DNA of 64,000 nt from a virus, in IMG/VR virus record IMGVR_UViG_3300027970_000021, positions 1 through 64,000 of that record; one strand, given 5' to 3'. The position numbers and the translations under genes were made by a program. The notes beneath the pieces are model-generated. The model was not told the origin of the DNA and made no database searches. It saw nothing but the letters and a program-made list of their open reading frames with translations. Of this stretch, positions 18,890-58,472 are shown one piece after another. Each line of letters opens with the position of its first letter. Within the stretch, counting starts at the first letter, position 1.

Positions 18890-20210
18890 ATTAGTTTCCG
18901 ACCCTCTCGACGTTGAAATAAGTATTTGCAGTAGTTCCCGAAATTGTGAGTGTGCTTGCCGAGTTGTTTCCAAGGCCGTATAGGAAGATTTCAACGTAAT
19001 CCCCAGCATTCAACTGAAGCGTCGTGCTTCCATTGAACGCGTTGATTGTCGTTGCGGCAGATGTTCTGTACCCAAACAGACGAGCGGACGCTCCGTTTTT
19101 GTAGAGGTAAAGCCCGTAATCAGATGCGAGCACGTTAGCTGAGGCGAGCAGGACTGCGGAGCTTATGCGGTACTTACCCGATACGGGTGCAGTGAATCTG
19201 CTGTTTGCTGAGCTAAATGATCCGGTCGTGTCAAACACTGCGGAAGAAAAAGCTACCTTAACGAAACTATTATTCGTCGCGATCCCTGTTTGGTTAGACC
19301 CTCCAAGTGTTGCATCCATCGCGACTGTTTCACTCGCCGCGATCTGCGACGGGCCGGAGATACGCGAGATTGAGAAGTAGTTGTCAACAACACTACCTCC
19401 GACATTCAATGCTCCACCTGAGTTTTGGAAAACTTGAATCCCTACCGTGTCCCCTGCATTGAACAAATATTCTGTTGCACCATTCAAAAACGTACCTGCA
19501 GAAGCCGTAGGGTCGAATATGTATGCCAGTGTGCGGATATTGCTTCCGTTTACACGCAGACGAACCTCACGACCGTTCGTCGAGCTTGCGGCAAAACTTA
19601 CTTGAGTCGTAATCCTATACCAGCCGGGGACTGGAATCGTGTAGAGACTTGTACCGGTATTCCAAGCCCCGTGCGTGTCGCTGATTGCGGCATCGAACGC
19701 TACGAGTGTTCCGGTGCTGTCTGGAATTGACTGAGTGGCTGCGCGGCCTGTAGTCATTGCCACGACGCGAGTGTCCGTCTCAGACGACATCTGCACTTGA
19801 GACGACCATCCGGTGATGGGGACGAGGAAAGATCCGCCAAAAACCGTGTTGTTGGCCCAAGCCGTCCCTAACGTGCCATTGAAATAATTATCTGCCTGTT
19901 GGCTAATGATTGCGACCGTTGTTGGAGAACCTGTGGCTACGAGAATATTGCCTGACCATGGGGTTTTAGATGCGGTAAGCGCCCCCACAACAGAGTTGTT
20001 TACGGCTCTAGTTATGTCCATAGAAAGGCCGCTTGGCAGCGAAATAGAAACTGGTGATCCAGAATTTGTTCCAGAAGTAACTGTAAACATGACTTCAAGA
20101 GAATCACCTACGCGCCGATACTTGGCGATAGATGCAGAAACAGTTCCTAGGCCAACGTATGTCGGAGTGTAGCTCTGCCAGTCCGTGACTGGCGTTCCCT
20201 GCGTGATGAT
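18890..20210 (-). repeat. Direct repeat copy 1: tail-tip C-terminal region
   Basis: Homologous to 57152-58472 with a constant offset of 38,262 bases. Parts are diverged (many substitutions around 19110-19420), and parts are nearly or fully identical. Together with its partner it brackets all of phage B. Weaker homology at the protein level continues to about 20750, so the two genes are diverged homologues with a near-identical centre and not a simple duplicated element. Confidence 0.9.
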
Positions 20211-20831
20211 CTGCGGAGAGACGCGGACGTCGGATAGCGCCATCGTGTAGGCGGATGCCGACGTGCTGCCAACGTGGATACAGAGGCGGTAGCTGGTCGA
20301 GTTAGAGGCTGCCTGGAAAGTGCCTCTCCAACTTTGTTGAACAGTGGTGCTTTCAATCGAAGAAGGGGCCGGTTGAATCAAAATCGAGTTGGTAACATCG
20401 TAGATCCAGACCGAAAGATCGCTCGTGGCGTAAGTCCCGCTGACTACCTCGTAGGGGAACGTAATTTGCAGGACTTTACCTTTGTCGGAATTATCAATCG
20501 TGAATGCATTCGAGACCCCGTTGCCTTGCCGGTTGTTTGCATCCTTGACGAGGTTGAAGTCAGCTCCCGGACGAAGCGGCGTTGTGGTCGAGCGCGAGAT
20601 CGCAAACGTAGGGCTACCGCCCGTGCAATCGACCGGAGAGCTGGCTGCCGAATCAGCATACCCCGCCCATCCGAGAGTATCTTTTCTAGCGTAGGCGTTT
20701 TTTATGTAGTTGCGGGAAGAGCTTGATCCGCTGTCGAGGAAATCTGCATCTAAAAACCTAGGGGTTTGCGCAAACGTAGTGCTCGCCCCAAGGGCTGCCG
20801 CTGCCAGTAAGAGGCGTTTGAAAAATTTCAT
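18891..20831 (-). CDS. Tail-tip-like protein with N-terminal signal peptide and two C1q-like domains, 646 aa
   Basis: It opens with a clear Sec signal peptide (MKFFKRLLLAAAALGASTTF, cleavage expected after Ala21), which is unusual for a fibre-related protein. Residues about 25-215 form a jelly-roll-like carbohydrate-binding-type region (NYIKNAYARKDTLGW; YRLCIHV). The C-terminal part has two C1q-like beta domains (about 345-495 and 500-646), each ending in a YFSISRI or YFNVERVG strand. From about residue 215 it matches the phage A fibre at 57153-60002. Its 3' half may belong to phage A if the join is artificial: in phage B the natural continuation is 58023 to 57153. Expected location is the periplasm or outside the cell. 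Confidence 0.75.
   Translation of the reverse strand: MKFFKRLLLAAAALGASTTFAQTPRFLDADFLDSGSSSSRNYIKNAYARKDTLGWAGYADSAASSPVDCTGGSPTFAISRSTTTPLRPGADFNLVKDANNRQGNGVSNAFTIDNSDKGKVLQITFPYEVVSGTYATSDLSVWIYDVTNSILIQPAPSSIESTTVQQSWRGTFQAASNSTSYRLCIHVGSTSASAYTMALSDVRVSPQIITQGTPVTDWQSYTPTYVGLGTVSASIAKYRRVGDSLEVMFTVTSGTNSGSPVSISLPSGLSMDITRAVNNSVVGALTASKTPWSGNILVATGSPTTVAIISQQADNYFNGTLGTAWANNTVFGGSFLVPITGWSSQVQMSSETDTRVVAMTTGRAATQSIPDSTGTLVAFDAAISDTHGAWNTGTSLYTIPVPGWYRITTQVSFAASSTNGREVRLRVNGSNIRTLAYIFDPTASAGTFLNGATEYLFNAGDTVGIQVFQNSGGALNVGGSVVDNYFSISRISGPSQIAASETVAMDATLGGSNQTGIATNNSFVKVAFSSAVFDTTGSFSSANSRFTAPVSGKYRISSAVLLASANVLASDYGLYLYKNGASARLFGYRTSAATTINAFNGSTTLQLNAGDYVEIFLYGLGNNSASTLTISGTTANTYFNVERVGN
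19762..20153 (-). repeat. 392-bp block identical to 58024-58415
   Basis: I compared the two copies line by line and found no difference between 19762-20153 and 58024-58415. The first mismatches on either side are at 19761/58023 and 20154/58416. The block encodes about residues 227-357 of the secreted phage B protein and about residues 530-660 of the phage A fibre. This is where either a crossover or an assembly switch between the phages would lie. Confidence 0.9.
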
Positions 20832-20840
20832 ATCTCTCCT

Positions 20841-23800
20841 TTAGATTCCGTTACGAGCAATTTCGACAACTGCGGCAAGACCCGCATCCCAACGAAGACG
20901 AATGATGGAGCCCGCTTGCCCGCGCCAATCCCCCTGCAGGAGGACGGTCGAGGATGCGGCTAGGTCACAGTAGTTTGCGTTCGAGGTCCCGAGGATTTCA
21001 ATCTCAGCTCCGTCAACCATACTCGAGGTCGTGATCGTGAACGTCTGAGCCGAGCCCCCCGTGTACCTAAAGCGCTGTGCCGGAGAATTCGTGGGCGTAA
21101 TCGAGGAGCCGGTGAAGTTCGACTGATCGGGCGTCTTTGCTCCGCCGGTAGATAGCACCACATCCCAGCGCGTATCCGTCGTGTTGTAGACGAGCAGTGC
21201 GCCCTCGTTGAGCTTCAGCACGAGGTCCCGTGCCTGCGGGCAACGGATACGGTTTGCGGAAGTAGATCCCGCCCCCTGATGGCTGATCGTCACATCTGCG
21301 GTAGCGGACGTGTTCACAACCCATAGCATTCGCGGCGAACCGCCCCCTGAAATCCCACCAACTGTGCGTGCAGTGGCGGGAGCCAGACGGAACACGGTGA
21401 TTCCCGTTGAGGTTACGTCATCGGTTGTGCCGGTCGCGGTCGAGTCGTCTACGTCGATAGCGAGGGTGCCGTCTAAGTGCAGTGTCTCAGCCGGGGATGC
21501 TTTGTTGACGCCCATCCGCGAGGTCGCAGTCAGTGTAAGCATTTCGACCGGAGTCGTTGATGCGTCGGGCTTCACGAAGAATCCGAGATCGGCGCCCTTA
21601 CCGTTGGTTGTGCCGACTCCGCGCAGGATGGCGCGGATGTAGCCTACCAGGCGAGTACTGGCCGAAGGGGAAGTGCCGTTGTTAAGCGAGAAGAATTGCA
21701 GAATTCCTGCGATGTCGCTTGCTGCCGGGCTTGCGCGGTTGTTGCCGAGTGCTAGTGCGCCGTAGGAGTTCGCACCTGTCGCGTCGCCCATCACGTTCAC
21801 GCGGCCTTCGGTCGTAACCGCGGTGCCGATCGGATCATCGCTCGTCGGAGTGCTCCCGAGAGTTAGCCGGAAGTTTTTATACCAGCGGGCAATCTCGATG
21901 TTGTTCACCCGGAACGGGATTTTGAAATCATCGATCGTACCGAAGAACTTCTCAGCCAGCACCGTGTTGCCATCGAGCGTCCAACCGGATCCGCCGCCAG
22001 AGCCAGAGCCAGATCCGCCCACCACCTGCCAGCGGCTTGATGCGGTCTCGTAGTAAAGAATGACGGCGGCACCGTCGGCCATTGCTATGGCCGCGCCCGT
22101 TCCCGTGCGGATACGGTTTGCAGCGGTGCCGCCCGTGTCGTCGTTGAGGTTGACGGATGCGCCCGTGCGGTTGATGAGAACCAGGAACGTGGCATTTGGC
22201 GGCGCCGGAATCATGTCGATCGAAGTCAGCGACCCGTCGGTAACAAGCAAGCTCGTCTTGGTCGGAGTCGCAAGCGTGGCGTTTGCGCCGGTCGCGGCTG
22301 CGTCCGTCTGCTCAGATCCCTGAAGCGTTGCCAAGGCGCGCAGGGCTGCAACAAAGCTCTTAGCTCCGCCGAAACTCTGTGCCGCGGTGCTGACCGATCC
22401 GGGGTTGGTTGCGTCTGCCGGCTGAATCGTAAGGGTGTCTGCCACAAGCGTCGCGCCAGACGTGCCTGGAGTAGACCCAAAAGTCGCAAGCGAGAGGGAG
22501 CTTCCGCCAGCACCTTGGAAACTGCGCCAAGTGCCGCTCGTCATACAGAAGAAAAAGACTTTGGAGCCACTGGCCAGCGCAAAGGCAGCGTCGGCGGCAC
22601 CCGCGTCGATCGCCTCGCCCGAGGCCGGGAACACGTCGCAAGAGGCAGCGCCCGAGTTCTGCACGTAAAGCTGCATGCCCGCGACTGCCGCGGGGAGCTT
22701 GACTGAATCGTTTGCGGTGGCGCACACGCTCACGCGGTTTTGCTGTTTAGCAAGCTGGGTTGCGGAAGCCTGTCCGCCGCCCGCAAACGCGGTGATTGTG
22801 TCGGCAGCCGAGAACATCACGTAGGCTTGCGCAATGATGTTGTTTGCGAACGTCTTCACACCCGCGATCGTTTGCGCGATGGCGGTGAGTAACCCCGGCT
22901 GGGATCCGTCTGCCGGCTGCAGGGTGAGGACTTGGCCTGAGAGCGAGGCGCCGTTTGCAGAGGGGGAGCTGCCGACGGCTGCAAGCGACACATCGCCTGA
23001 GTTCGTTCCCGCGATGTCAGCGTCACTAGAGAAAGTCAGCGAACGCGCGGCGTTTTTGAGATCGATCGTGAGGTCACGATCGGCGTCCTGCGTGACGCTA
23101 CTCGTGAAAATGAAGCGCGAGAACCAAGACGTGGACGTTTCTTTGATCGAAACACCCGTCACGAATTTCTTCAAGCCCGCAATCAACTGCGTGAGAGTTG
23201 AGACGCCGCCGGGGTTGGTTGCATCTGCCGGCTCCATGTTTAGCACAGCACCAGAGAGCGTAAGGCCGTTTGCGTTCGGGGCCGTGCCAAATCCTTGCAG
23301 GGTGACGGTCGCGGGACCGGCAGGACCAACGGCGCCGGCAGGACCCGGGGGGCCTGCGATACCCAAGTACTCGGACGGATCACGCGCCTGCACGCCGGTA
23401 CCGTCATCTGAGATTGAGAGAACTTTACCGGCGTTGATTGCGAGGTCGGGGAAAGCCTTATCCCGATCAGGCGAGGTGGAACCAAAAAGTAGCGCCCGCC
23501 GCATGCGGCCGACCACTTCCTGTACTTGCTGCACGATACGATCAAGCGTGCGCTCGTTCGTCTCAGGCGGGAAGATCCCCGTCGAAATGTAATCCGTTTC
23601 CTGTGTGACGGGCGTCACTCGACGAACGAGTACGCGCTGCGTGGCGGTCGGAGTCGAAACTGTGACTACCGCACTACCAGGGTCGCCGCCCGAGATTGAA
23701 TACTGCCCGGGAGCTGTGAGCGTTGTCTCGGTGACTGCTGTCGGCACCGTGTAGTCGCGTAGGATGACTTGCACCTGCGAGTTGGCAGTGAACGCAAAGG

Positions 23801-23870
23801 GGATTGCGAATGAAGTCGTAACTCCGTCGCCCTGATAAATCTGCTCGGTCGTCGTGTTAGAGATCGTCAT
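20841..23870 (-). CDS. Phage B tail fibre, 1009 aa (T7 gp17-like N-terminus)
   Basis: Residues 1-130 match the podophage fibre N-terminal domain that attaches to the tail (YQGDGVTTSFAIPFAFTA; VRRVTPVTQETDY; ERTLDRIVQQVQEVVGRMRR). Next come a short collagen-like stretch (GPPGPAGAVGPAGPA, about residues 173-187) and three copies of a roughly 45-residue module (about 189-236, 294-341, 458-506) with the core F/VG.....G..L....L...PAD...PG..(S/T)...Q...G.K.F. The C-terminal half is beta-rich. The ATG overlaps the previous stop (ATGA). It recognises the host receptor; the repeats suggest modular growth. Confidence 0.9.
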   Translation of the reverse strand: MTISNTTTEQIYQGDGVTTSFAIPFAFTANSQVQVILRDYTVPTAVTETTLTAPGQYSISGGDPGSAVVTVSTPTATQRVLVRRVTPVTQETDYISTGIFPPETNERTLDRIVQQVQEVVGRMRRALLFGSTSPDRDKAFPDLAINAGKVLSISDDGTGVQARDPSEYLGIAGPPGPAGAVGPAGPATVTLQGFGTAPNANGLTLSGAVLNMEPADATNPGGVSTLTQLIAGLKKFVTGVSIKETSTSWFSRFIFTSSVTQDADRDLTIDLKNAARSLTFSSDADIAGTNSGDVSLAAVGSSPSANGASLSGQVLTLQPADGSQPGLLTAIAQTIAGVKTFANNIIAQAYVMFSAADTITAFAGGGQASATQLAKQQNRVSVCATANDSVKLPAAVAGMQLYVQNSGAASCDVFPASGEAIDAGAADAAFALASGSKVFFFCMTSGTWRSFQGAGGSSLSLATFGSTPGTSGATLVADTLTIQPADATNPGSVSTAAQSFGGAKSFVAALRALATLQGSEQTDAAATGANATLATPTKTSLLVTDGSLTSIDMIPAPPNATFLVLINRTGASVNLNDDTGGTAANRIRTGTGAAIAMADGAAVILYYETASSRWQVVGGSGSGSGGGSGWTLDGNTVLAEKFFGTIDDFKIPFRVNNIEIARWYKNFRLTLGSTPTSDDPIGTAVTTEGRVNVMGDATGANSYGALALGNNRASPAASDIAGILQFFSLNNGTSPSASTRLVGYIRAILRGVGTTNGKGADLGFFVKPDASTTPVEMLTLTATSRMGVNKASPAETLHLDGTLAIDVDDSTATGTTDDVTSTGITVFRLAPATARTVGGISGGGSPRMLWVVNTSATADVTISHQGAGSTSANRIRCPQARDLVLKLNEGALLVYNTTDTRWDVVLSTGGAKTPDQSNFTGSSITPTNSPAQRFRYTGGSAQTFTITTSSMVDGAEIEILGTSNANYCDLAASSTVLLQGDWRGQAGSIIRLRWDAGLAAVVEIARNGI

Positions 23871-26800
23871 AGCGTAGGCTCCCCTTTTCGTTTCGCCCGT
23901 TGCTGGGTTTTAAGCATAGTTGATTCTTCGTCTTTTGAAATACCCATGATGGACCGAATTTGTGCACGCGCGTTTTCAACCACGTCACGGTCCACCGTTT
24001 GCCCAAGCGCGGTCGAGCGCGCAACTTGAGCACCCAAGAATTGTTCCCGGATATCCGGGAATTCCAGGAGTAGTTGTTGTTTTGCAGCGGCGCGGTACAT
24101 GCCCACCATTTCTGCAATGACGGTGCGTTTGTTTTCGTCGGTACGGTAGGCCTCCGGGATGCCGGGCTTCCCATCCAATTGCCGAGCGTAGTCGGATTTA
24201 ATGAGCGCCCCAAGCATGTCCTTAAGGTTTGGAACCTTTTGGTCCCGTTCCTTAGGTGCTTTTTTGATCTCATCGATCGAGCCAAGGCCGTGCCCCGCCG
24301 CAAGCTCTACAAATCGATTGTACTGCTCACTGGTTAGGTTCACGGGGAAGCTGTCTTTGCCGTCCACGTAGGCGAACGAGATATTGCGGGGAGGCATGTC
24401 CACCATGAGGTGGCTCTGCCCGGCAAGGGGCTTCGGCTTGACGAGCGGACCCGATACTCCCAGGCGAACAAGCTCTTCCCGGATGGGATCGTCTTTTGCA
24501 GGGGAGTACTTGAACGGGTTCACCAGGGCGATCGCGGAGAGGATCGCAGGGCCCGTTCCCTGCGGGTGTACAACCTCTTCACCGAAGAGGTTTAGCTGCG
24601 GCATGCCCACACCAAACGAAGCTTTCAGGGGCTTCACCACTGACTCCCAAGCGCCGTCCTGTGCCCCAAGCTTTGTGTCGATTTTCTTATCCCCAAAAGC
24701 TCTGTTTACTTGCTTGAACAGGTTGGGCGTAAGCGACGAGGCGAAGTTATCTGCCAGTTTTTTCCAAGCTGACGTGGGCGCACCGTCCCGAAGCAACTCG
24801 AGCACTTTTCCGAAATCGTCGGTGAGTACGTCGGGAACTGCCGCGGAGGCAATGTGCGCGGCCCCCGCAAGTGTGAGGTCTTCAAACCCCTGCATGTCCC
24901 CATCCGGGCTATCCCAGTAGGCTGCGAGCTCATGTAGATCGGCGGCAATACCGAGCAGGGTCCCTACGCCTCCCAAGGCTTGGTAAGAGAAATACCCGTC
25001 CCCAACCTTGATAGAGTTAGGTTGCCAGCCAGTGTCCTCGAGCGCTTTGCGCGCCTGCCAGTTTGTGGGACCGGCGCCCGTGATGACGCCCTCAACGGCG
25101 AGTAGCCCACCAAGCCCCAGCATCGACGTGCCTACTGCTACCTTACCGAGCGCTACGTCCCGAGCGGTACCGCCGGAAGCCATCGCTTCCTTGAATCCGG
25201 GGGTGAGCATCGCAAGGCCAGGGAATCGCTGCAACACTTGATCCGTTTGGTTGATGTTGATTTTGGTAAACGGAACCAGCATGCGGAACATCGGGTTCTG
25301 CGAGATTCCGTCGTATAATTTTGTGAATATCTCCGGGGTGTAGTTCAGCGTGCGCTGCCCCGCCTCACGCGCGGCCATCATGTTGATGTGTGCCGGCGGG
25401 AACTGCGTCATCTCCTTCACCATTTTTGTGTAGGCATCGCCCGTAAGGCCCGCTGCCCGGGCGGTGCGAACGGCAAGAGCGTTGGTTTGCATGCGATAGA
25501 TCGTAGCCTTAGATGCTACGTCGGCGGCGTTCAGCGCACGCCCAGGAATACGAATTCCAGAGCCGATGAAATCCATCGCGTCGGCCCAGACGCCATGCAG
25601 CCCGTTGGCGGCGCCAGTCAAAGTAGAGGGACGCTCAAGCGCCATCAGCTTCGAGCCGCCCGCAGTTAGAAGGGGATCGCTCGTGCGCCACGCCTTGAAG
25701 TAAGCAATCCAACCTTCCTTGAGGCCCTGCCCAAGCGACAGCACCGTAGCGTTAGACTCGGCGAGTGAAACGGCCTCACTTTGCACCTTGTTTGCAAACG
25801 CCGTGTAGGTTGCGTCAATCTCTTCCGCTGGCATCCCACCGAAGAAAGACGAAAGTTCATCCACACTAAGACGTGTGGCAGGGTTACCTTTGCCGCCTAC
25901 GATTGAGCGCATTTTCTGGACAGCCCAAGCCGCGTACTTCTCGGGGATTAATCCAATGGTGTTCACCAGGTTGTTGGCGACGTTTACGGTCTGCGTGAGC
26001 GGCCCGGAAAGTAAGCTCATAACCCGCAGCTCTTCGCCCATCGCTGCGAGGTGCCCAAGTCTCGAGCGATTACTCATCCAGGAGAAGTGCTTCACCTTCT
26101 CTGCGGGGGACATCCTAGACATCATGTCCACGATTGTTGCCGCTTGCTTCTGAATCTGCTCCTTACCGCCAGCGACGGTAAGCACGTCCTTTGCAGCGAA
26201 CATCTCTGCAACGGGGAACGCAGTCACATTCGACAAGTCCGCCGCACGCGTGGCAAGACCGGCTTCCTTTGTCCCGGCTTTAAACAACGCCATGGAATCA
26301 AGCGTGAGCATCTTCGATCTCTCGAAAGCAGCAATTACCTCATCGCTCGCATTCGGAGCAGCGGCAGCTATCGCTTTCTCAACACTGTCCTGCACGGCGT
26401 TAACAAAGAAAATTCCAGCACCTTTTACCTCAACGGCATTCCACCCTTGGCCAGGCACCTTAGTAGTAAGCCGGCTAACATCTTCGCCGAGGAGCTTGAA
26501 CGCATCAGCAAGTACCGACTCATCGCTAACAACTCCGCGAGCAATCGTCTCAAAGCCTTCCTTGTTCGCGGCTACAATATTTGAAACCACGCGGCGGAAG
26601 TCATCGACAGACCCCATCGTGGGCACGTTATCTAGATTGAACCGCTTCGTGGCCTCGGTCGCCGGAGCCTGCAATTCTTCTAGGCTGAGCATACGCAAGT
26701 TCTGCGCTTGGCGCATTACCGTGGGCTGCTCAACTACCCGGGCTGCGTCGAGAACACCACGCCCTTCGGCCACTGCAGCGGAAACCGCAGATGCGTCTGC

Positions 26801-27811
26801 CGTGATTGTCTCCCCGCCCGAGTTTACAAGGGTGTGCCCTCGCGCGGTCGCTGCCGCATCCAGGGGAGCCTCAGTTGCACCTTCCTGGGCTGCCTTACTT
26901 GCAATGGCTTGCGCCTCGTCAACCGAAGGGGCAATTGCCTGCCCGGCCTTATCGACGGCAGTGTTTTCTGCAGTGACCTTTACTTCCGTCTTTGCCGCAG
27001 CTCCGGCGGCGCCCTCAGCAACTTCAGTGCCTACTTTGGAGACGCCTCGGAAGGATTTGTAGACCTTCATTGCGCCAACAAAAACTCCGGCAAGTGCGGC
27101 GTCGCCCACGATGCTCGTGACGAAGTTTTTGAAGCGGCCTTCGGCCTCGGTGTCAGTTTCCTTGGCTGCCCAGTAATCGACAATTCCGTTCTGGAACATC
27201 GGGAATCGCTGAACAAAGTTAGCGATATTCCCCTCGTGCGGGTCGGCCGTAAAATAAGAAGATACGCCTGCAGCGGCAGCGCTGGCCCCCACAGAAACAA
27301 TCCCAGGTGCAGCCATAGCCGCAGCGCCTACGCCTGTTCCAATCGCGGTCGCAAACTGGGTTACAAACTTCCCAGCTCCCCGGAATGCACGCTCTGTGTC
27401 GGTCGTAGACGGGGGAGCCAGGTCTTTGCCAAACGTGAACACACGATCGTCATCGATCAAATCTGTTTCTTTGATCCCGGTGGTCGTAAGCCAGTTATCG
27501 ACCGAGTTGATGAGATCATGCCCGGCCTGTACAGCACCACGTGCGACATCTACCGCACCTGCGGCAAACTGCTTCATCGGTTTCCCGCCGGACAATTCAT
27601 CCGCGCGGGTAGCCACACCCGAGAGCTCATTTGCAGGGGGGGTTGCCTTTGGGGCGGGCCCCTCCTGCGGCTGCTGTTTTGCAAGCAGTTCGTCTGCCGG
27701 AGCTCCGAAAATATCTTTCTCGAGTTGAGAGATTCGGTTGTCTTGTGACCCCGCAATTTCACGGTCTAGTGCGTAGCCGCGTTCCATCGGAGACAGATTT
27801 GTCGTATCCAT
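23867..27811 (-). CDS. Large internal virion (ejection) protein, 1314 aa
   Basis: I start at the ATG at 27811, which overlaps the previous stop as TAATG, and not at the longer open frame reaching 27883. Residues 1-110 are polar. Two Ala/Gly hydrophobic patches (FATAIGTGVGAAAMAAPGIV; GDAALAGVFVGAMKVYK) and further ones near residue 900 (TSMLGLGGLLAVEGVITGAG) suggest membrane interaction. The position just upstream of the tail fibre and the great length match the T7 gp16 slot, the protein that forms the DNA ejection channel. I see no lysozyme or transglycosylase motif at the N-terminus. Confidence 0.75.
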   Translation of the reverse strand: MDTTNLSPMERGYALDREIAGSQDNRISQLEKDIFGAPADELLAKQQPQEGPAPKATPPANELSGVATRADELSGGKPMKQFAAGAVDVARGAVQAGHDLINSVDNWLTTTGIKETDLIDDDRVFTFGKDLAPPSTTDTERAFRGAGKFVTQFATAIGTGVGAAAMAAPGIVSVGASAAAAGVSSYFTADPHEGNIANFVQRFPMFQNGIVDYWAAKETDTEAEGRFKNFVTSIVGDAALAGVFVGAMKVYKSFRGVSKVGTEVAEGAAGAAAKTEVKVTAENTAVDKAGQAIAPSVDEAQAIASKAAQEGATEAPLDAAATARGHTLVNSGGETITADASAVSAAVAEGRGVLDAARVVEQPTVMRQAQNLRMLSLEELQAPATEATKRFNLDNVPTMGSVDDFRRVVSNIVAANKEGFETIARGVVSDESVLADAFKLLGEDVSRLTTKVPGQGWNAVEVKGAGIFFVNAVQDSVEKAIAAAAPNASDEVIAAFERSKMLTLDSMALFKAGTKEAGLATRAADLSNVTAFPVAEMFAAKDVLTVAGGKEQIQKQAATIVDMMSRMSPAEKVKHFSWMSNRSRLGHLAAMGEELRVMSLLSGPLTQTVNVANNLVNTIGLIPEKYAAWAVQKMRSIVGGKGNPATRLSVDELSSFFGGMPAEEIDATYTAFANKVQSEAVSLAESNATVLSLGQGLKEGWIAYFKAWRTSDPLLTAGGSKLMALERPSTLTGAANGLHGVWADAMDFIGSGIRIPGRALNAADVASKATIYRMQTNALAVRTARAAGLTGDAYTKMVKEMTQFPPAHINMMAAREAGQRTLNYTPEIFTKLYDGISQNPMFRMLVPFTKININQTDQVLQRFPGLAMLTPGFKEAMASGGTARDVALGKVAVGTSMLGLGGLLAVEGVITGAGPTNWQARKALEDTGWQPNSIKVGDGYFSYQALGGVGTLLGIAADLHELAAYWDSPDGDMQGFEDLTLAGAAHIASAAVPDVLTDDFGKVLELLRDGAPTSAWKKLADNFASSLTPNLFKQVNRAFGDKKIDTKLGAQDGAWESVVKPLKASFGVGMPQLNLFGEEVVHPQGTGPAILSAIALVNPFKYSPAKDDPIREELVRLGVSGPLVKPKPLAGQSHLMVDMPPRNISFAYVDGKDSFPVNLTSEQYNRFVELAAGHGLGSIDEIKKAPKERDQKVPNLKDMLGALIKSDYARQLDGKPGIPEAYRTDENKRTVIAEMVGMYRAAAKQQLLLEFPDIREQFLGAQVARSTALGQTVDRDVVENARAQIRSIMGISKDEESTMLKTQQRAKRKGEPTL

Positions 27812-29388: not shown

Positions 29389-29855
29389 TATTTGCTCCTA
29401 GCGAGGAAACCGCTCGCGGTCGAAAGCCCTTGGCCGATGACCGGGAGCACGTTCGCCTCAAAGCTCGAAAGCCGCTCAGCCTGCTCCATGGATGCGCCGG
29501 CTTTCAGGAAAGCCTCGCGCGCCTTGGCCTTGCCGTCGTCGATGATCGCGCGCTCCTCGCCCACCTGGCGAGCCTTCGCGTTCGCAAGCACAAGCATCGG
29601 CGAACCAGTCAGATCTACTCCCCCGCGCGCGAACGCCGAAACCTGCGCTCCGCGAAACTCTTCTGACTGATCGCGGTAGATGCTAAGCTCACGTTGAGTC
29701 GCGGCCTGTGCAAAACGAGCCTGCTCTTCCAGGAAGGAAGCGTTTGCGCGCTCAGCTTCCGCCTGCGCCTGGTTTGCCTTGATGTTGCCGTAGGCGCTCG
29801 TCGCGAGCCCAGCCGCGGCAATTGAGCCTAAAATGACCCCCGTACCTACAGGCAT
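29388..29855 (-). CDS. gp14-like internal virion protein, 155 aa
   Basis: A short hydrophobic N-terminus (GVILGSIAAAGLATSAYGNI) is followed by a long Ala/Glu/Gln/Arg-rich helix (NQAQAEAERANASFLEEQAR) with the RGGVDLTGSPMLVLA element typical of the podophage internal virion protein B class. About 150 residues is a usual length. It should reside in the capsid core and be ejected into the host envelope. The phage A counterpart is probably 5033-6109. Confidence 0.8.
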   Translation of the reverse strand: MPVGTGVILGSIAAAGLATSAYGNIKANQAQAEAERANASFLEEQARFAQAATQRELSIYRDQSEEFRGAQVSAFARGGVDLTGSPMLVLANAKARQVGEERAIIDDGKAKAREAFLKAGASMEQAERLSSFEANVLPVIGQGLSTASGFLARSK

Positions 29856-29858
29856 CCC

Positions 29859-33584: not shown

Positions 33585-33637
33585 TCGGCTGCTCCCTCCC
33601 ACCCCTGGGTGGCTATGATATAGCCCAGAACGGAAAC

Positions 33638-34093: not shown

Positions 34094-34127
34094 GAAAGTG
34101 GCTCCTTATGCTTAAAATCAAAGGGCC

Positions 34128-34146
34128 CCGGGGGACCACCCCCCGG
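34128..34146 (-). terminator. Hairpin after phage B capsid gene
   Basis: Minus strand: arms CCGGGGG and CCCCCGG around a five-base loop, followed by GGCCCTTTGATTTT. It lies between the capsid stop at 34168 and the next gene start at 34093. The T-run is interrupted, so partial termination or transcript stabilisation is more likely than a full stop. Confidence 0.45.
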
Positions 34147-34167
34147 AGCGTTACTGCAGGGCAAAAC

Positions 34168-48809: not shown

Positions 48810-48828
48810 GTTAGTGGGTGGAGCGGCA

Positions 48829-50301
48829 ATGATCGAATTCGATAAATTATGGGACCACCAAAAGCGAGCCGTCGCGCTCGCCATGCAGCAGCGAGACTTC
48901 GCGCTGTTCCACGACATGGGCGCGGGCAAGACGGGCACGATGATCAATATCCTGCGCCGCCGCTATGGCGAGGCCGGGCGCCTGCGCCGCACGCTGATCG
49001 TCTCGCCGCTCATCACGCTTGATAACTGGAAGAAAGAATTCGGGCAATTCTCGAAGGTGGATCCCCGGCACATTCTTATCTTGAAAGGCGCGGGCCGTAA
49101 GCGTGCAAAGGATTTCATGAAGTTTGTTTCGGACCCCGTGACCGAACGACTTGTTTTCAACCGCGTGGTCATCATGAACTACGAGTCGGTTCAAATGAAG
49201 GAACTGTATGACGCAATCAAAGCCTGGAATCCTGAGATCATTGTTTTTGATGAAGCTCATCGACTCAGAAATCACCAGTCAAAACGCGCGCGAGCTTGCG
49301 CGAATCTGGCTGACATCGCAAAGCACCGATATCTGCTTACGGGATCGCCGATCCTTAATTCAGCAATGGACGTGTTCTTCCAGTACCGCTGTCTCGACCT
49401 TGGAGACACGTTTGGGCAGAACTTTTACGCCTTCCGAAACCGATACTTTGAAGACCGAAACTCTGGCTGGGCTAGTAAGCCTGGTTACTTCCCCGACTTT
49501 GAAGCTCGTCCTGAGGCTTTTGCCGATCTCCACGCGCGCATGTACAAAGACGGCAGAGGGCTTGCCCGCGCCCACCGAGTGATGAAGAAAGACTGCCTTG
49601 ACCTACCCCCACTGGTGAAGACCAAGATCGAAGTAGAGCTCTCGCCGGATCAACGGAAGATGTACAAGGAAATGTCAGACGAGTTCCTGACATTTGTTGA
49701 GCGCGAGAAACAAACGGGCACACCACTAGCAGTGGTGGCACAGCTTGCAATCACGAAGGCGCTCCGCTTGCAGCAGATCGTAACCGGCTTCTGCAAGGCG
49801 GAAGACGGAGTTGAGTATGAGATTGCAGGGGGGAATCCCAGGCTCGAGGCGCTAGAGGAATTGCTTGAAGACTTGGCTCCGAACGGCAAAGTAATTGTGT
49901 GGGCATGCTTTAAGCAGAACTACCAACAGATTGCACGCGTGTGTGACAAGCTGAAGCTCCCTTACCGGATGATCCATGGTGAGATTAGGAACGCTGATAA
50001 GCAGATAGCCATGGAAGAGTTCCGCAAAGACGAATCGATCAAGGTGATGATTGCAAACCAGGGGGCTGCAGGCATTGGCGTGAATTTGGTTGAAGCCCCG
50101 TATTCTGTGTTTTTCTCCCGGAACTTTTCGCTTGAGCAAGATACTCAGGCCGAGGCACGCAACTATCGCGGTGGATCTGAGATGCATACAAGTGTGACTC
50201 GCTATGATATTGTTGCGCGAAATAGTATTGACGAGTTAATCGCCGACGCGTTAGCAGGTAAGCAGAAAATCGCAGATACCATTCTCGATTGGAAAATATA
50301 A
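48829..50301 (+). CDS. SNF2/DEAD-type helicase, 490 aa
   Basis: I start at the ATG at 48829 (GTGGAG seven bases before); an earlier start at 48814 is possible. All helicase motifs are visible: ALFHDMGAGKTGTMINI (motif I), LIVSPLITLDNWKKEF (Ia), EIIVFDEAHRLRN (II, DEAH), YLLTGSPILN (III), VNLVEAPYSVFFSRNFSLEQDTQAEARNYRGG (V/VI). This class occurs in many phages as a replication or recombination helicase. TATTGACAAGGC, also present at 41070, lies 37 bases upstream of the start. Confidence 0.9.
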   Translation: MIEFDKLWDHQKRAVALAMQQRDFALFHDMGAGKTGTMINILRRRYGEAGRLRRTLIVSPLITLDNWKKEFGQFSKVDPRHILILKGAGRKRAKDFMKFVSDPVTERLVFNRVVIMNYESVQMKELYDAIKAWNPEIIVFDEAHRLRNHQSKRARACANLADIAKHRYLLTGSPILNSAMDVFFQYRCLDLGDTFGQNFYAFRNRYFEDRNSGWASKPGYFPDFEARPEAFADLHARMYKDGRGLARAHRVMKKDCLDLPPLVKTKIEVELSPDQRKMYKEMSDEFLTFVEREKQTGTPLAVVAQLAITKALRLQQIVTGFCKAEDGVEYEIAGGNPRLEALEELLEDLAPNGKVIVWACFKQNYQQIARVCDKLKLPYRMIHGEIRNADKQIAMEEFRKDESIKVMIANQGAAGIGVNLVEAPYSVFFSRNFSLEQDTQAEARNYRGGSEMHTSVTRYDIVARNSIDELIADALAGKQKIADTILDWKI

Positions 50302-50310
50302 GGAGCGGAC

Positions 50311-50781
50311 ATGGCAAGTGAATTGGATTCCTGGGACGAAGCGACTCCCGTGATTGAGGTCTCAACGCAAGAGCTAGATGCTCTCGTGCAGCGAATGGAC
50401 ACCCTCTGGGACGAGTCAGAGAAGGTAAAGAAGCTGGCAAGTGAGGCTCGCGCGGCCTACGATGAGGTCGAGGCACGCGTGCTCGCGATGCTGAAAGCCG
50501 CTGGAAAAAAGAGCTACATCGTTGATGGACTTGGCACCGTGTCGATCACCAACAAATACATGATTACAACGCCCAAGGGGATTGAGGAAAAGAAACGGCT
50601 CTTTGCCTACATCAACAAGGAGCACGGGGAAGAGGGGCTATATGGCTTACTCACGATCAATTCCCAGACGCTCAATAGCTTTGTGAACGCAGAGCTTGAC
50701 CGCAAACCTGAAGTACAAATTCCCGGACTCGATGCACCGACTCACCGTGAGTCTCTTTCGTTCCGGGCAAAAAAGAAGTGA
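50311..50781 (+). CDS. Coiled-coil protein of the replication block, 156 aa
   Basis: A helical N-terminal half (STQELDALVQRMDTLWDESEKVKKLASEARAAYDEVEARVLAMLKA) followed by an alpha/beta C-terminal half (KSYIVDGLGTVSITNKYMITTPKGIEEKKRLFAYINKEHGEEGLYG). Similar small proteins stand in front of SSB-like genes in other phages. It could be a replication or recombination accessory; the family name is unknown to me. GGAG precedes its ATG. Confidence 0.65.
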   Translation: MASELDSWDEATPVIEVSTQELDALVQRMDTLWDESEKVKKLASEARAAYDEVEARVLAMLKAAGKKSYIVDGLGTVSITNKYMITTPKGIEEKKRLFAYINKEHGEEGLYGLLTINSQTLNSFVNAELDRKPEVQIPGLDAPTHRESLSFRAKKK

Positions 50782-50788
50782 GGAAGAA

Positions 50789-51577
50789 ATGGCAACCAAG
50801 AAGTCCCCGAAATCAGATACCCCTGTGAGCCAAGCCCCGGCAGTCGTTGAAGTGAACGGGGCGCTCGTATCGGCAGAGGAGCAGGCAGCCTGGGGCGCGA
50901 GTCCCTTCCTGTCGAGCCGTGACACGATCATCCCGAAGATTCTGCTCATGCAGCCGATGTCAAAGAAAGTGCTGGCAGACGAGGCAGCCTTCGGTGAGCT
51001 CCGCGATTCGGTCACAAACGAGGTCTACGGGTCTGATAAGAAATCGATCGAGATCATCCCCTTCCACCTGCAAACGGTGTGGGTTGAGCACGAGAAGAAC
51101 GTGGACCCTAAGACCGGCAAAGAGGACTTGAAGTACCTCCGCACGGTGCCGCTCTCTCCGCAGAACGACACGCTGCCCCTCGATGAGCCCAACTTAAAGC
51201 GCGTGCGCACGATGCAGTTCTACGTGCTGCGCCCGGAAGAGTTGGGATCCGGGATCCCTAAGGTGATCGCCTTTCGTATCACTTCAATCAAGGCCGGAAA
51301 GAAACTGGCAACACAAATGTATGTGACGAACCGGGCAGCCGGGCTTCCCCCTCCGGGCAGGGTGATGCGGCTTTCTGTCTCCCGCCAGACCAATGGCAAG
51401 GGCACGTTTGCGGTGATGGATGTCGAGCCTGTTCGCGCTGCCACCAGTGAGGAGCGCGCTTCTGCTCTTAAGTGGTTCAAGATTATCCAGACGGATGCGG
51501 CTGTTAAGGTCGATGATTCGGATGTGGCAGAGGTCGAGACTCCGGTCGAAGACTCGGGCACTACCGGACAATTCTAA
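50789..51577 (+). CDS. Possible single-strand DNA-binding protein, 262 aa
   Basis: The ATG at 50789 (GAGGAAG upstream) is taken over the longer frame starting inside the previous gene. The centre is beta-rich (IEIIPFHLQTVWVEHEKNVD; KVIAFRITSIKAGKKLATQMYVT), and the acidic tail DDSDVAEVETPVEDSGTTGQF ends in an aromatic residue. An acidic tail ending in Phe is the protein-interaction hallmark of T7 gp2.5 and other phage SSBs. Position between helicase and exonuclease fits. No clear OB-fold signature, so the call is tentative. Confidence 0.55.
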   Translation: MATKKSPKSDTPVSQAPAVVEVNGALVSAEEQAAWGASPFLSSRDTIIPKILLMQPMSKKVLADEAAFGELRDSVTNEVYGSDKKSIEIIPFHLQTVWVEHEKNVDPKTGKEDLKYLRTVPLSPQNDTLPLDEPNLKRVRTMQFYVLRPEELGSGIPKVIAFRITSIKAGKKLATQMYVTNRAAGLPPPGRVMRLSVSRQTNGKGTFAVMDVEPVRAATSEERASALKWFKIIQTDAAVKVDDSDVAEVETPVEDSGTTGQF

Positions 51578-51588
51578 GTAACGTTGGG

Positions 51589-51624
51589 GCCCCTGGGGGT
51601 AAGGGAACAGGGGCCCGTTTTTAC
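51589..51624 (+). terminator. Rho-independent terminator
   Basis: Nine-base perfect arms (GGGCCCCTG at 51589-51597, CAGGGGCCC at 51610-51618) followed by GTTTTT. It lies after the SSB-like gene on the plus strand, 14 bases before the exonuclease ATG, so it probably reduces read-through into the polymerase genes. Confidence 0.85.
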
Positions 51625-51638
51625 TAAAGAGGGCATGT

Positions 51639-52406
51639 ATGCGAGTGCTTTGCATTGACTTTGAGACGACACACAAGGACCCGCTACAAGCCCGCCCGTG
51701 GGAGTTTGCCGCGTGCGTGGCTACTAACAATTCGTGGGCATTTGCACAGGAGGGGCAATATACTGGGCGCATGTGGGCAGCTGATTACCCTGAGTTGTCG
51801 CCCGAGATCCAACGTGTCTGCAAGCTGCCGAGTGAGCGTAAGAACTTTGTCGGCTCTCCCAGCACCAAAGAAGTTCTTGCGAATCTGCACTCCCTGGCAG
51901 GGCAGGCAGATTACCTGATGGCTTATAACGCCGAGTACGACCGGACGGTGTGGGAGCAGGAATGCATCCGGCAGAAGGTGCCCTTCCCTACCACCCCCTG
52001 GCTGTGCGCCTACTCTGATGTCCCGTACCCTGACTATTACCGCTGCCGGCAGCTCTCGCATCTGGCGCTTGACCATGGGATCAAGGTCGATCCCGAGGCA
52101 CTGCATGGAGCCCTGGGAGATGTGAGACTGATGGGCCAGCTACTCAGCCGAGGTGGATACACCCTGGAAAAAATCCTGGAATATAAGCAGGAGCCCTGGG
52201 TGTACATGAAGGCGGTGTTCAATGCGTTTGGCCCTGGAGGCCAGGAGCTCAAAGAAGCGGCAAAGGCAGACGGCTACGGCTGGCAGCAGTGCCGCGGAGA
52301 TACGGTTACGTTCATGAAGACTTGGGTTAAGCGAGTGAAGCTATCCAAGTTTGAGGAAGAGAAGGCTCGCACGCTGCCGTTCAAGCGTGAAACTTTGGAG
52401 GCCTGA
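51639..52406 (+). CDS. DnaQ-like 3'-5' exonuclease, 255 aa
   Basis: Exo motifs of the DEDD family: VLCIDFETTHKDP (ExoI, Asp and Glu), YLMAYNAEYDRTVWEQE (ExoII, Asp), and ALHGALGDVRLMGQLL (ExoIII, His and Asp). There are further conserved parts (WLCAYSDVPYPDYYRCRQLSHLALDHG). A stand-alone proofreading or recombination nuclease, additional to the exonuclease domain in the polymerase. TGATG couples it to the next gene. Confidence 0.85.
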   Translation: MRVLCIDFETTHKDPLQARPWEFAACVATNNSWAFAQEGQYTGRMWAADYPELSPEIQRVCKLPSERKNFVGSPSTKEVLANLHSLAGQADYLMAYNAEYDRTVWEQECIRQKVPFPTTPWLCAYSDVPYPDYYRCRQLSHLALDHGIKVDPEALHGALGDVRLMGQLLSRGGYTLEKILEYKQEPWVYMKAVFNAFGPGGQELKEAAKADGYGWQQCRGDTVTFMKTWVKRVKLSKFEEEKARTLPFKRETLEA

Positions 52407-52612
52407 TGCATACGAAAAATCTGAAACAACAACCTGCCCGCAAGGGGAATACTCCCCGCCGCAAACCGCTAACGGTCCGTATCGATCGCACGCTACACGA
52501 CTTTGTGACCCGCTCAGCACATGCCAAGGGCGAGTGCGTGGCCGTGACGGTCTCGCGCATCTTAAAGTCCTACCAGCGGAGCGTCGGCCGCGCGAAGGCA
52601 CTGCACGCGTGA
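52406..52612 (+). CDS. Small RHH-like basic protein, 68 aa
   Basis: Starts at the TGATG junction and is very basic. KPLTVRIDRTLHDFVTRSAHAKGECVAVTVSRILKSYQ has the strand-helix-helix order of a ribbon-helix-helix DNA-binding protein. It overlaps the polymerase start (GTGA). Possibly a small regulator; no partner toxin gene is seen. Confidence 0.55.
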   Translation: MHTKNLKQQPARKGNTPRRKPLTVRIDRTLHDFVTRSAHAKGECVAVTVSRILKSYQRSVGRAKALHA

Positions 52613-54441
52613 TTGTCACCGACTCCAATTTTGAAGAGGTCGTAGGCCTGCTCTCCCGCAGCGGGGAGTACGGCCTGGACTGCGAAACCACGGGGCTTGA
52701 TTTCAAGGCTCGCTTGTTTTCGATCATCATTGCGAGTCGTGAACAGTCCTATTATTTCAATTTCCACGACTACGGGGACGGGACGCCGGTACTTCCGCGC
52801 TCACGTATCCGGGCAATGCAGCCCGTCTTCCTCGGGCAATCGATTTTTTACATTTCGAATGCGAAGTTTGATCTCCGAATGCTGCGGCACGAAGGGCTTG
52901 AGGTAGAGTCCCACGTTTTCTGCACAAACGCACTGGGCCGGGTGCTTAAGAACAATTACTTCGGGCCGAAGGCCTACTCGCTAGAATCCTGGGCTCAGCG
53001 GCTTGGCGACGCCAAGGACGATGCCGTCATGGACTACGTGGTTGAGCACAAGCTCTACTCGGTTGAGAATATTCCAGGGAAGAAAAAAGAATTTAAGCGG
53101 ATGCGCTTTTGGGAAGTCCCCGCGAGCATCATGATTCCCTACGGGGAGAAGGATGCTGAGCTTCACTTGAAGGTCGGATCGCATATTGCAGCGGGGATTA
53201 AGTCGCTGAACGCTCCCGGATCTCCGGGAAATATTCAACGGCTGGCTGAGAACGAGGCGCAGCTAACAAAGGTCTGCTTTGACATGGAGTGGGCAGGCAT
53301 CCGCATTGATCGTGATTACGTAAGGAAGGCACAGGCCTATGAAGAAGAGCAAATTTCCCGCTTCACCGAACGTTTCCGTGAGTTATCGGGTGAGACGTTC
53401 CGGGACTCGTCGAGTTTTCTGGCCGGTGTCTTCAAGCAAGCCGGCTACACCGACTTGCCCACAACCGACAAAGGAAACCCAAGCTTCACCGACGACAACC
53501 TCGACGATCTCGGAGGAGACCTTGCTCAGAGCGTGCGAGATATTCGCTTTCATGCCAAGCGAGTCGGAACTTATTACTCCTCTTTTTTGCACTACGCCGA
53601 CGGAGAGGACCGAATCCACCCAGACATGAAGCAATCGGGCACTGAGACGGGACGCTTCAGCTACGCTGATCCGAACCTACAGAACGTGCCGAAAGAGGAG
53701 AACACCACACATGCTACCACCCCTTCTATCGTACGCTGTAGTTTCGTGCCTGATCCTGGTGACGTGTTTGTTATGGTGGATTACTCACAGCAGGAGTTTC
53801 GACTCATGCTCGACTACGCCGGAGAAACCAAGCTCATCGATGCCATCAACCAGGGGGCAGACGTTCACCAAGCCACTGCAGATATGTTGGGCATCTCGCG
53901 ACAATATGCGAAGACAGTTAACTTTGCGCTTCTCTACGGAGCAGGACCGGCAAAGATGGCTCGAATGCTTTCGATACCTGAGTTCGAGGCACGGGATCTC
54001 CGCGCGCTTTACTTCGGAAGGCTTCCTCGAGTGCAGCGCTTTATCACGCAAGTCATCGATCGTGGTCGAGCCCGCGGTTACGTGGTTAATTGGGCGGGTA
54101 GGCGTTGCCACATCGATTCACCCGACTACGCCTACATTCTCCCCAATCACCTGATCCAGGGAGGAGGCGCGGATGTCATCAAGTTCGCCATGGTGCAGAT
54201 CCACGCGCTCTTGCAGGAGAAAACCGGCGGGCGGTCGAGCATGCGGCTGCAGGTCCATGATGAGGTGGTCTTCCAATTTAACCCTCGCGATCTCGAGCTA
54301 GTTCCAGAAATCCGTCGTATCATGGAGGGGATCTATCGTCCCTTCAACGGGATGAAACTTACCACGTCGTGTGACCACTCCTGGAAATCCTGGGGGGCAC
54401 CCGACAAAGAGAAGGGGCTCCCTGGGGATGAGACGGCCTGA
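52609..54441 (+). CDS. Family A DNA polymerase with 3'-5' exonuclease domain, 610 aa
   Basis: I choose the GTG at 52609, where GTGA overlaps the previous stop; the open frame extends 86 codons upstream as a shadow. The exonuclease begins with GEYGLDCETTGLDF (about residue 19-32). The polymerase has motif A FVMVDYSQQEFRLML (about 387), motif B RQYAKTVNFALLYGAG (about 431) and motif C LQVHDEVVFQF (about 547). The 5' nuclease domain of Pol I is absent, as in other phage polymerases. It replicates the phage B genome. Confidence 0.95.
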   Translation: MIVTDSNFEEVVGLLSRSGEYGLDCETTGLDFKARLFSIIIASREQSYYFNFHDYGDGTPVLPRSRIRAMQPVFLGQSIFYISNAKFDLRMLRHEGLEVESHVFCTNALGRVLKNNYFGPKAYSLESWAQRLGDAKDDAVMDYVVEHKLYSVENIPGKKKEFKRMRFWEVPASIMIPYGEKDAELHLKVGSHIAAGIKSLNAPGSPGNIQRLAENEAQLTKVCFDMEWAGIRIDRDYVRKAQAYEEEQISRFTERFRELSGETFRDSSSFLAGVFKQAGYTDLPTTDKGNPSFTDDNLDDLGGDLAQSVRDIRFHAKRVGTYYSSFLHYADGEDRIHPDMKQSGTETGRFSYADPNLQNVPKEENTTHATTPSIVRCSFVPDPGDVFVMVDYSQQEFRLMLDYAGETKLIDAINQGADVHQATADMLGISRQYAKTVNFALLYGAGPAKMARMLSIPEFEARDLRALYFGRLPRVQRFITQVIDRGRARGYVVNWAGRRCHIDSPDYAYILPNHLIQGGGADVIKFAMVQIHALLQEKTGGRSSMRLQVHDEVVFQFNPRDLELVPEIRRIMEGIYRPFNGMKLTTSCDHSWKSWGAPDKEKGLPGDETA

Positions 54442-55624: not shown

Positions 55625-56119
55625 CTAGGTTTTCCTAGCTACCCAAGGATCCAGGAACCCCACAATGGAGAACCTTGGAAACCCTTTTAAGTTACGCTTG
55701 ACACGATAGACCCCATCGCCGTCCGAATCAAGGCCGGAAGGGTTTACATTTCCCTCGACCGTCAAAAAATTACCCTTGCGATCGGGCGAGGTCTCAACGA
55801 TGCCGGCATGCCCGCGCCCTGAGTCATCCGTTCGCTTCCAAATGATGATGCGCCCGGGGCTGGCCTCTTTTCGCTGGTAAAGCTTGTTGCGATTCCAGAG
55901 GGTGAGGCAGTGCTCTGAAAATTGGATGTGATCCAGGCCCGACTGCTCGGCTACTTTCTGCAGGACAGTGCACACAAACGCTGCACACCAAGGCTCGCCC
56001 TGCGCCACGCCGTCTACCGTCTTCTGGAAGCCTTCAATGATGTCGCCGGCATTGGCGCCTGACTCGTGGACGCCGAGATAGATTCTAGCCATGTTCACGG
56101 TTGCTAGGTGCAGATCCAT
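55625..56119 (-). CDS. Endolysin with CHAP domain, 164 aa
   Basis: CHAP (cysteine amidase/peptidase) motifs: GEPWCAAFVCTVLQK with catalytic Cys45, GRGHAGIVETSP with His104, and FLTVEGNVN with the polar third residue. The first 30 residues (MARIYLGVHESGANAGD) match the usual opening of such enzymes. No signal peptide, so it needs a holin. It cuts peptidoglycan at the end of infection. TAATG coupling to the spanin-like gene before it. Confidence 0.85.
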   Translation of the reverse strand: MDLHLATVNMARIYLGVHESGANAGDIIEGFQKTVDGVAQGEPWCAAFVCTVLQKVAEQSGLDHIQFSEHCLTLWNRNKLYQRKEASPGRIIIWKRTDDSGRGHAGIVETSPDRKGNFLTVEGNVNPSGLDSDGDGVYRVKRNLKGFPRFSIVGFLDPWVARKT

Positions 56120-56406: not shown

Positions 56407-56409
56407 GAG

Positions 56410-57153
56410 CTATCCCCCGCAGACAGCCATTCTAAACGGATTTTTCGGATCGCGGTAGTAGCCTTTGACCCAGTTTTCTCGTGGCCCGCGGTTTGTTTCA
56501 TGCACTTTTATGCAGCCATCAATCCACGCTTTCCCCCACCAGGGGAGCTTCACTTTCCGTAGGAATTTGATGCGGAGATCAGCCAGCCCCCAGTTTTTTG
56601 AGAGCCGCAGCCCTAGCCCCAGCCAGAGAAGCGAGATCGGATCGGGCTCCTCACCTGCTGCCAGCTCAAGGATTGCCCAGTCACCAGGCTGAAGCATCTC
56701 AGTCCACGACCAACGTCCGGGATCGCGGGGGTTGTACTGAAACCAGTGCTTGCGCCCATACTCGAGAATCGCCCAGGCATGCCCTGAATTGTAGTGGTGC
56801 GAGAGGATTGCAAGCGACACCACGTTGTCGTGCGACTGCCCGATGTCAAGCGGCACGAGGTCGCCTTCTGCATTCTCAAATCTGAGCTCGTGCCCAGGCC
56901 ACCGCCCGTGGAGCCCCGGCTCAATCTCAGTCAGCTCCATGTGGCGCTTAAAAGCCAGGAACCCTTCCACTGATCTCGCCTCCGGGTCAAGCTCAAGGAG
57001 CCCCTGCGCCAGCGCGTAGCTCGCGTTCTCGTTGGTTGAGCGCACAGGATATTTCGGACTCAACGGGGGAGCTAGGTTGCCCGGCTCATCTTCAAACAAA
57101 CCCCCGCCATCGGGAGCAATGTAGCGCTCGACGAAGGCGGAGAGGTGGTCCAT
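56410..57153 (-). CDS. Hypothetical protein downstream of the tail-tip gene, 247 aa
   Basis: Soluble, Trp-rich, with a QSHDNVVSLAILSHHYNSGHAWAILEYGRKHWFQYNPRDPGRW core that contains conserved-looking His and Asp. Later parts (WLGLGLRLSKNWGLADLRIKFL; GCIKVHETNRGPRENWVKGYYRDP) also look like a conserved phage family. The many His/Asp could form an active site, perhaps a hydrolase, but I cannot show it. It starts at the stop of the fibre C-terminus (TAATG), which is the natural junction of phage B. Confidence 0.6.
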   Translation of the reverse strand: MDHLSAFVERYIAPDGGGLFEDEPGNLAPPLSPKYPVRSTNENASYALAQGLLELDPEARSVEGFLAFKRHMELTEIEPGLHGRWPGHELRFENAEGDLVPLDIGQSHDNVVSLAILSHHYNSGHAWAILEYGRKHWFQYNPRDPGRWSWTEMLQPGDWAILELAAGEEPDPISLLWLGLGLRLSKNWGLADLRIKFLRKVKLPWWGKAWIDGCIKVHETNRGPRENWVKGYYRDPKNPFRMAVCGG

Positions 57154-58472
57154 TAGTTTCCGACCCTCTCGACGTTGAAATAAGTATTTGCAATAACTCC
57201 CGAAATTGTGAGTGTGCTTGCCGAGTTGTTTCCAAGGCCGTATAGGAAGATTTCAACGTAATCCCCAGCATTCAACTGAAGCGTCGTGCTTCCATTGAAC
57301 GCGTTGATTGTCGTTGCGGCAGATGTTCTGTACCCAAACAGACGAGCGGACGCTCCGTTTTTATATAGGTAAAGCCCGTAATCGGATGCGAGCACGTTCG
57401 CGGAGGCAAGTAGGACTGCAGCACTTACGCGATACTTACCTGACACCGGGGCCGTGAACCGACTATTGCCGGAGCTAAACGATCCAGTTGTATCGAAGAC
57501 TGCGGAAGAGAAGGCCACCTTAACGAAACTATTGTTCGTTGCTACTCCTGTTTGGTTAGCCCCTCCAAGTGTTGCATCCATCGCGACTGTCTCACTGGCC
57601 GCGATCTGCGATGGGCCGGAGATTCGGGAGATGGAGAAGTAGTTGTCAGCAACACCTCCTCCGACGTTTAATGCTCCACCTGAGTTTTGGAAGACTTGAA
57701 TCCCTACCGTGTCCCCTGCGTTAAACAAATATTCTGTTGCACCATTCAAAAACGTACCTGCAGAAGCCGTAGGGCCGAATATGTATGCCAGTGTCCGGAT
57801 ATTGCTTCCGTTTACACGCAGACGAACCTCACGACCGTTGGTCGAGCTTGCGGCAAAAGCTACTTGAGTCGTAATCCTATACCAGCCAGGGACTGGAATC
57901 GTATAGAGACTTGTACCGGTATTCCAAGCCCCGTGCGTGTCGCTGATTGCGGCGTCGAAAGCTACCAGTGTTCCGGTACTGTCTGGAATCGACTGAGTGG
58001 CTGCGCGGCCTGTAGTCATCGCTACGACGCGAGTGTCCGTCTCAGACGACATCTGCACTTGAGACGACCATCCGGTGATGGGGACGAGGAAAGATCCGCC
58101 AAAAACCGTGTTGTTGGCCCAAGCCGTCCCTAACGTGCCATTGAAATAATTATCTGCCTGTTGGCTAATGATTGCGACCGTTGTTGGAGAACCTGTGGCT
58201 ACGAGAATATTGCCTGACCATGGGGTTTTAGATGCGGTAAGCGCCCCCACAACAGAGTTGTTTACGGCTCTAGTTATGTCCATAGAAAGGCCGCTTGGCA
58301 GCGAAATAGAAACTGGTGATCCAGAATTTGTTCCAGAAGTAACTGTAAACATGACTTCAAGAGAATCACCTACGCGCCGATACTTGGCGATAGATGCAGA
58401 AACAGTTCCTAGGCCGACAAATGTAGGAGTGTAGCTCTGCCAATCCGTAACAGGCGTTCCCTGCGTAATAAT
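57152..58472 (-). repeat. Direct repeat copy 2: tail-tip C-terminal region
   Basis: Partner of 18890-20210 (offset 38,262). It shares the stop codon context at one end (ATTAGTTTCC) and loses nucleotide similarity beyond about 58472, although the protein similarity goes on for another 150 residues. Contains the identical 392-bp block at 58024-58415. Confidence 0.9.

Follow-up and report, generated by a model that had tools for sequence, protein, structure and literature searches.

The window analysed here, a 64,000-nt part of a 70,060-bp virus record, carries genes of two phages, referred to as A and B. The left arm of phage A (1–18889, GC 0.38–0.46) has a gene order in common with A-type relatives and includes a gene for a 1659-aa protein (8417–13396), genes at 13873–15129 and 16224–17774, and an HNH endonuclease gene (17776–18411). 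It is followed on the minus strand by a tail-fibre gene (18890–20831; 646 aa) encoding BclA_C and C1q domains. A second tail-fibre gene on the same strand (57153–60002; 949 aa), the upstream part of which belongs to phage A, precedes the right arm of phage A, which occupies 60003–64000 on the minus strand and continues to position 70060 of the record. The right arm carries a gene at 60013–60507, a homing endonuclease gene (60547–61932), a capsid gene (62041–63093) and a GIY-YIG endonuclease gene (63200–63520). PHROG matches were obtained for 4 of 16 A proteins scanned versus 13 of 17 B proteins, with the two fibres set aside. The A capsid matched one record at 30% identity, and among bacterial sequences it matched one beta-proteobacterial MAG contig at 69% identity, which is insufficient to name a host. 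No near DNA relatives were found among public phage records for the stretches 1–18000 and 18000–36000, and no relatives of the fibre were found in the bacterial and archaeal genomes scanned, nor any match to it in plasmids.

Between the two fibre genes lies the remainder of podovirus B (20154–58023), which together with one 392-bp run described below makes a unit of 38,262 bp with 56% GC. Its structural block (20841–40783, minus strand), assigned by PHROGs, encodes a tail/fibre protein (20841–23870), an internal virion protein (23867–27883), a tail protein (30687–33014), the capsid (34168–35109), the portal, or head-tail adaptor (36495–38114), and the large (38533–39864) and small (39941–40783) terminase subunits. 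The replication block on the plus strand (46440–54441) encodes a primase, an SNF2/DEAD helicase, an exonuclease and a family A DNA polymerase, and an endolysin gene follows on the minus strand (55625–56119). The terminase, portal, capsid, polymerase and lysis genes that a preliminary description had ascribed to B were thus all recognised; its further characterization of B as T7-shaped holds for the size and the structural genes, but the B proteins scanned, a subset of its open reading frames, yielded no T7-type RNA polymerase. On the basis of the portal alone, B resembles the HTVC010P group of Pelagibacter podoviruses (43.6–45.3% identity over 90–92% of the length in the best 12 of 238 matches), records of which are 34–36 kb long whereas B is 38.3 kb with 56% GC. 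Directly downstream of the fibre gene, B carries a 247-aa gene on the minus strand (56410–57153) with no Pfam or PHROG match and with PDB matches of E 0.56 or worse; the predicted model of its product is of low confidence (mean pLDDT 63.9). Homologues of this gene in IMG/VR were limited to the record IMGVR_UViG_3300028581_000020 and a third phage, C (72–75% identical), apart from a weak match in one further locus (30% over 105 aa), and in phage C the homologue is likewise directly downstream of the fibre gene.

The two fibre genes contain a direct repeat on the same strand (18890–20216 and 57152–58478) with a spacing of exactly 38,262 bp, a common start at 18890/57152, and no indels across the well-matched part. 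The longest exact run common to both copies is 392 bp (19762–20153 = 58024–58415); a second run measures 165 bp (18936–19100 = 57198–57362), and the rest are 51 bp or shorter. Both of these runs sit in the C-terminal part of the fibre genes, each of which encodes BclA_C and C1q domains. Past 20216/58478 the identity drops, and homology continues to 20591/58853 (87%, 1,709 columns). Around the two copies the GC content rises from about 0.42–0.46 to 0.57–0.62 and then falls back. Apart from the tail-fibre genes, not one 21-mer occurs in both the A parts and the B core on either strand; because the repeat is the sole match between A and B, chance is excluded as its source. Both joins lie inside sequence common to both parents, which have none in common elsewhere. 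No inverted repeats were present in the window at a minimum length of 40. These data bear out the two same-orientation copies, the 392-bp segment and the AT-richer flanks of phage A (41% GC versus 56% GC in B) that the preliminary description had put forward.

The gene order of A-type phages was examined at 39 loci around A-type capsid genes, 38 of which were compared after exclusion of the one that is A itself. A homologue of 60013–60507 was present downstream of the capsid gene in 33 of the 38 loci and absent in 5, and left-arm genes of A (15139, 13873 or 8417) were also present in 9 of those 33. In all nine loci with both markers, the gap between the two sides of A measured 3.5–8.7 kb; the same gap in the window is 44.5 kb, or 6.2 kb with one B unit removed. 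In a tenth uninterrupted case, found by a fibre search, the gap contains a complete homologue of the fibre. The other 24 loci showed none of the three left-arm markers, but these loci decide nothing because they hold only 0–9.4 kb of sequence beyond the 60013 homologue (6 to 9.4 kb in L021, L028, L049, L052 and L055). The B core proteins (starts 20900–56300) had no tblastn match in the 39 A-type loci, and the same protein set does match relatives of B, such as L059 and L239. Queries run without a positive control gave no match to the B portal in 12 A-type records and none to the B endolysin in 16 records of B relatives. Furthermore, in four A relatives of 82,221–85,679 bp, which lack B, the right and left arms broadly follow the order in A; in two of them (G011 and G014), individual genes are displaced. 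One of the four has a terminal repeat of 127 bp, the length expected where a circle is assembled from a graph with k=127, which suggests that its assembler used k=127.

Phage A itself can be followed outward from the window. Two records (G001, which is IMGVR_UViG_3300028581_000020, and G005) extend A on both sides and meet in unique sequence: the head of the former matches the A-only record IMGVR_UViG_3300028557_000216 at its far end by 90 bp of exact sequence followed by a tandem repeat (95.5% over 133 bp). With B left out, phage A would be about 85,622 bp long, a figure that assumes an A–A join at the fibre; such a join keeps the fibre gene open (949 aa), and closing B at the 392-bp run likewise keeps its fibre gene open (646 aa). 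A B-only contig (3300027728_000084) stops at window position 20340 and a phage C contig (3300028553_001425) at 20374, both inside a block identical in B and C that ends at 20459. The contig that has A alone stops at 59061, at a distance of 646 bp from the exact run, and the shared runs do not account for this end. Among the matches listed in five-protein scans of IMG/VR, no A–A or B–B join of these phages was present; one list comprised the best 80 of 343 matches, and records very near the window may be absent from these scans.

The fibre of phage C (IMGVR_UViG_3300028569_002826; 34.5 kb, 58% GC) bears on which sequence is natural at the joins. Phage C has homologues of six A proteins at 25–39% identity, including the capsid and portal, and one homologue of a B gene outside the fibre locus (43388–44083, 41%). 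Over 18890–20459 its fibre gene is the left copy with one mismatch in 1,570 bp, at 19943, a position inside the 392-bp run where C differs from both copies. At sites that discriminate between the copies, C agrees with the left copy at 70 of 70 on one side of the 392-bp run and at 109 of 109 on the other; since C has the left-copy allele unbroken across this run, the left copy is a natural allele. At 18931, 18934 and 18935, between the stop codon and the 165-bp run, the flank of A has the C state. Two arrangements are consistent with these sites. Either A and C share 18890–20153 and B and C share 19762–20459, the overlap being the 392-bp run, or B and C share a single block and a false step lies inside the 165-bp run; position 19943 weighs slightly against the first arrangement, and the three flank sites weigh slightly in its favor. 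Both arrangements fit an assembly chimera, and they fit a real fusion too.

Taken together, these results make it very probable that two separate phages, A (about 85.6 kb) and B (38.26 kb), were joined in silico into one chimeric contig. The preliminary description had favored an assembler walking through a common segment, and this is the best supported account: the relatives of A are uninterrupted, the far ends of A meet without B, and the B and C contigs from other assemblies break inside the common fibre block. In such a case, the C-terminal half of a C1q-type tail fibre would be nearly identical in A and B, and the exact 392- and 165-bp runs would each be a single node in the assembly graph. 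The ends of B would close through concatemers or terminal repeats, giving a loop on the fibre node, and the assembler would enter from A, make one round of B and exit into A. Exactly one B unit between two same-orientation copies of the node is what a single walk round B would leave, and the loop accounts for the unit length, the orientation, both join positions and a normal phage A without B. The assembler step, the A–A join and the circular closure of B are what we infer from the observed repeat, the observed unit length, the uninterrupted order in the A relatives and the meeting of the far ends of A.

Within the assembly chimera, the node crossed would be either the 392-bp or the 165-bp run. 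It is possible, if less likely than not, that the crossing took place in the 165-bp run, close to the stop codon (18936–19100); the left copy would then be mainly the gene of B itself and the right copy mainly that of A. It would leave B and C sharing one block (18936–20459) in place of two overlapping A–C and B–C blocks; C agrees with the left copy at all 179 discriminating sites, and the different base of C at 19943 indicates that the 392-bp run is not simply that of C in both copies. However, read pairs would be expected to bridge 165 bp more easily than 392 bp, and the C state of the three differences in the A flank is expected if A has a C-like end. The false step could nevertheless be placed in this run because C has the left copy as one contiguous allele, and for the same reason the exact joins proposed in the preliminary description (20154 to 58023 for B, and 58416 to 19761 for A) are not established.

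A real cointegrate, in which circular or concatemeric B entered A by one crossover at the fibre gene to give a genome of about 123.9 kb, is considered very unlikely. Its strongest point is the second record, IMGVR_UViG_3300028581_000020 (104,527 bp), which has the same A–B–A order with both joins and differs from window positions 1–61331 at 3 sites (99.995%). This agreement is predicted by a real fusion; however, it is also predicted if the two phages occur in a second sample from the same site, since two such samples would yield the same assembly graph and thus the same order. The datasets likely come from one site or project, as judged by their close numbers (3300028553, -557, -569 and -581) and common phages: phage A is common to datasets 581 and 557 (99.96% over 2,271 bp), and phage C to datasets 569 and 553 (99.3% over 11,853 bp). 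The natural left-copy allele and the open reading frames of both fibre genes, which are intact at the joins, are also as a cointegrate would have them. Set against this, no interruption is seen in the A relatives in which both sides are present, and A alone already has the size of the four relatives compared (82–86 kb), so that fusion would enlarge the genome about 1.45-fold and presumably make it hard to package; a 1.3-kb direct repeat would also tend to recombine out. A and B each occur unjoined in a further dataset, a weak argument because neither of these contigs reaches the exact run common to A and B. The notion that B is a natural passenger of A-type phages, such as a satellite or prophage-like insertion, was rejected as having next to no probability: B does occupy one site flanked by direct repeats, but these are coding fibre sequence rather than attachment sites, no tRNA that could serve as an integration site is present in the 64,000-nt window, B has a full virion gene set, and no such insertion was seen in the A-type loci (no B core protein in 39) or records (no B portal in 12).

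An assembly chimera of A and B has parallels in metagenomic virus assembly. Passages of the relevant papers describe how repeats send assemblies along wrong paths and call concatenation artefacts prominent in IMG/VR (PMC7162821); others describe chimeric contigs arising from phage repeats (PMC10563150) and misassembly caused by regions conserved across species (PMC6350398). As in those passages, a repeat longer than the span of a read pair can lead to a wrong path, and mosaic phages share unitigs; the artefacts described there, however, are mainly end-to-end repeats of one phage or variant genomes, whereas here a whole unrelated second phage was apparently looped in through a common fibre gene. 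No report of phage chimeras through a fibre gene, and no mention of the five dataset numbers, was found in the papers searched.

The common fibre end itself looks like real biology. A near-identical C1q-type fibre end (94–99.9% DNA identity) occurs in A, B and C despite their different core genes, and it probably arose when phages of one host recently exchanged receptor-binding sequence; its role in receptor binding is putative and is suggested by the C1q and BclA_C domains. That distant phages can have fibre modules in common is established: PMC10579305 describes host-recognition modules common to the distantly related Alteromonas phages A5, V22 and P24. As in that account, the fibre genes are common despite different cores and a neighbouring gene travels along, here in B and C. 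The account differs in that the transfers among A5, V22 and P24 are thought to be old, whereas here one site differs in 1,570 bp, and in that the fibre end is C1q-like and the neighbouring gene has no recognised function.

If the chimera is true, at least two public records, that of the window and IMGVR_UViG_3300028581_000020, show two phages as one genome, and both would mislead statistics of size, gene content and host. If instead the fusion is true, two tailed phages from unrelated families would have merged their whole genomes. Unrelated phages have stretches of hundreds of identical bases in common at fibre genes that were freshly exchanged, and for this reason short-read assemblies can fuse or break phages there. 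Such places of fusion or breakage can in turn be used to seek recent exchange of receptor genes.

The phages with A-type capsids form a family represented in IMG/VR by L019-L057, the loci around their capsid genes, on contigs that reach 85.7 kb; in public phage records this family is nearly missing, with one match (30%). A GGTCC-rich tandem repeat marks the place where two phage A contigs terminate and join up, and occupies positions 1-200 of L143 and 1-133 of L154, the loci at the far ends of the two records; the order of the repeat copies differs between them.

Inside podovirus B, a GGC-rich array of 6-bp units (45423-45620) reads in one plus-strand frame as Ser-Gly, Asp-Gly and Tyr-Gly codons. 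Shortly past this array, at 45646, the B-only contig 3300027728_000084 stops.

Phage C (L149-L150, the loci from IMGVR_UViG_3300028569_002826) carries A-like virion genes (25-39% identity) despite a GC content of 58%, and has the fibre gene and a neighbouring gene in common with podovirus B. Near the fibre and capsid genes of phage A lie four predicted homing-type endonucleases, each of a different family: HNH (17776-18411), phrog_3339 type (60547-61932), GIY-YIG (63200-63520) and LAGLIDADG (63748-64476 in record coordinates). These predicted enzymes could promote exchange of the fibre gene.
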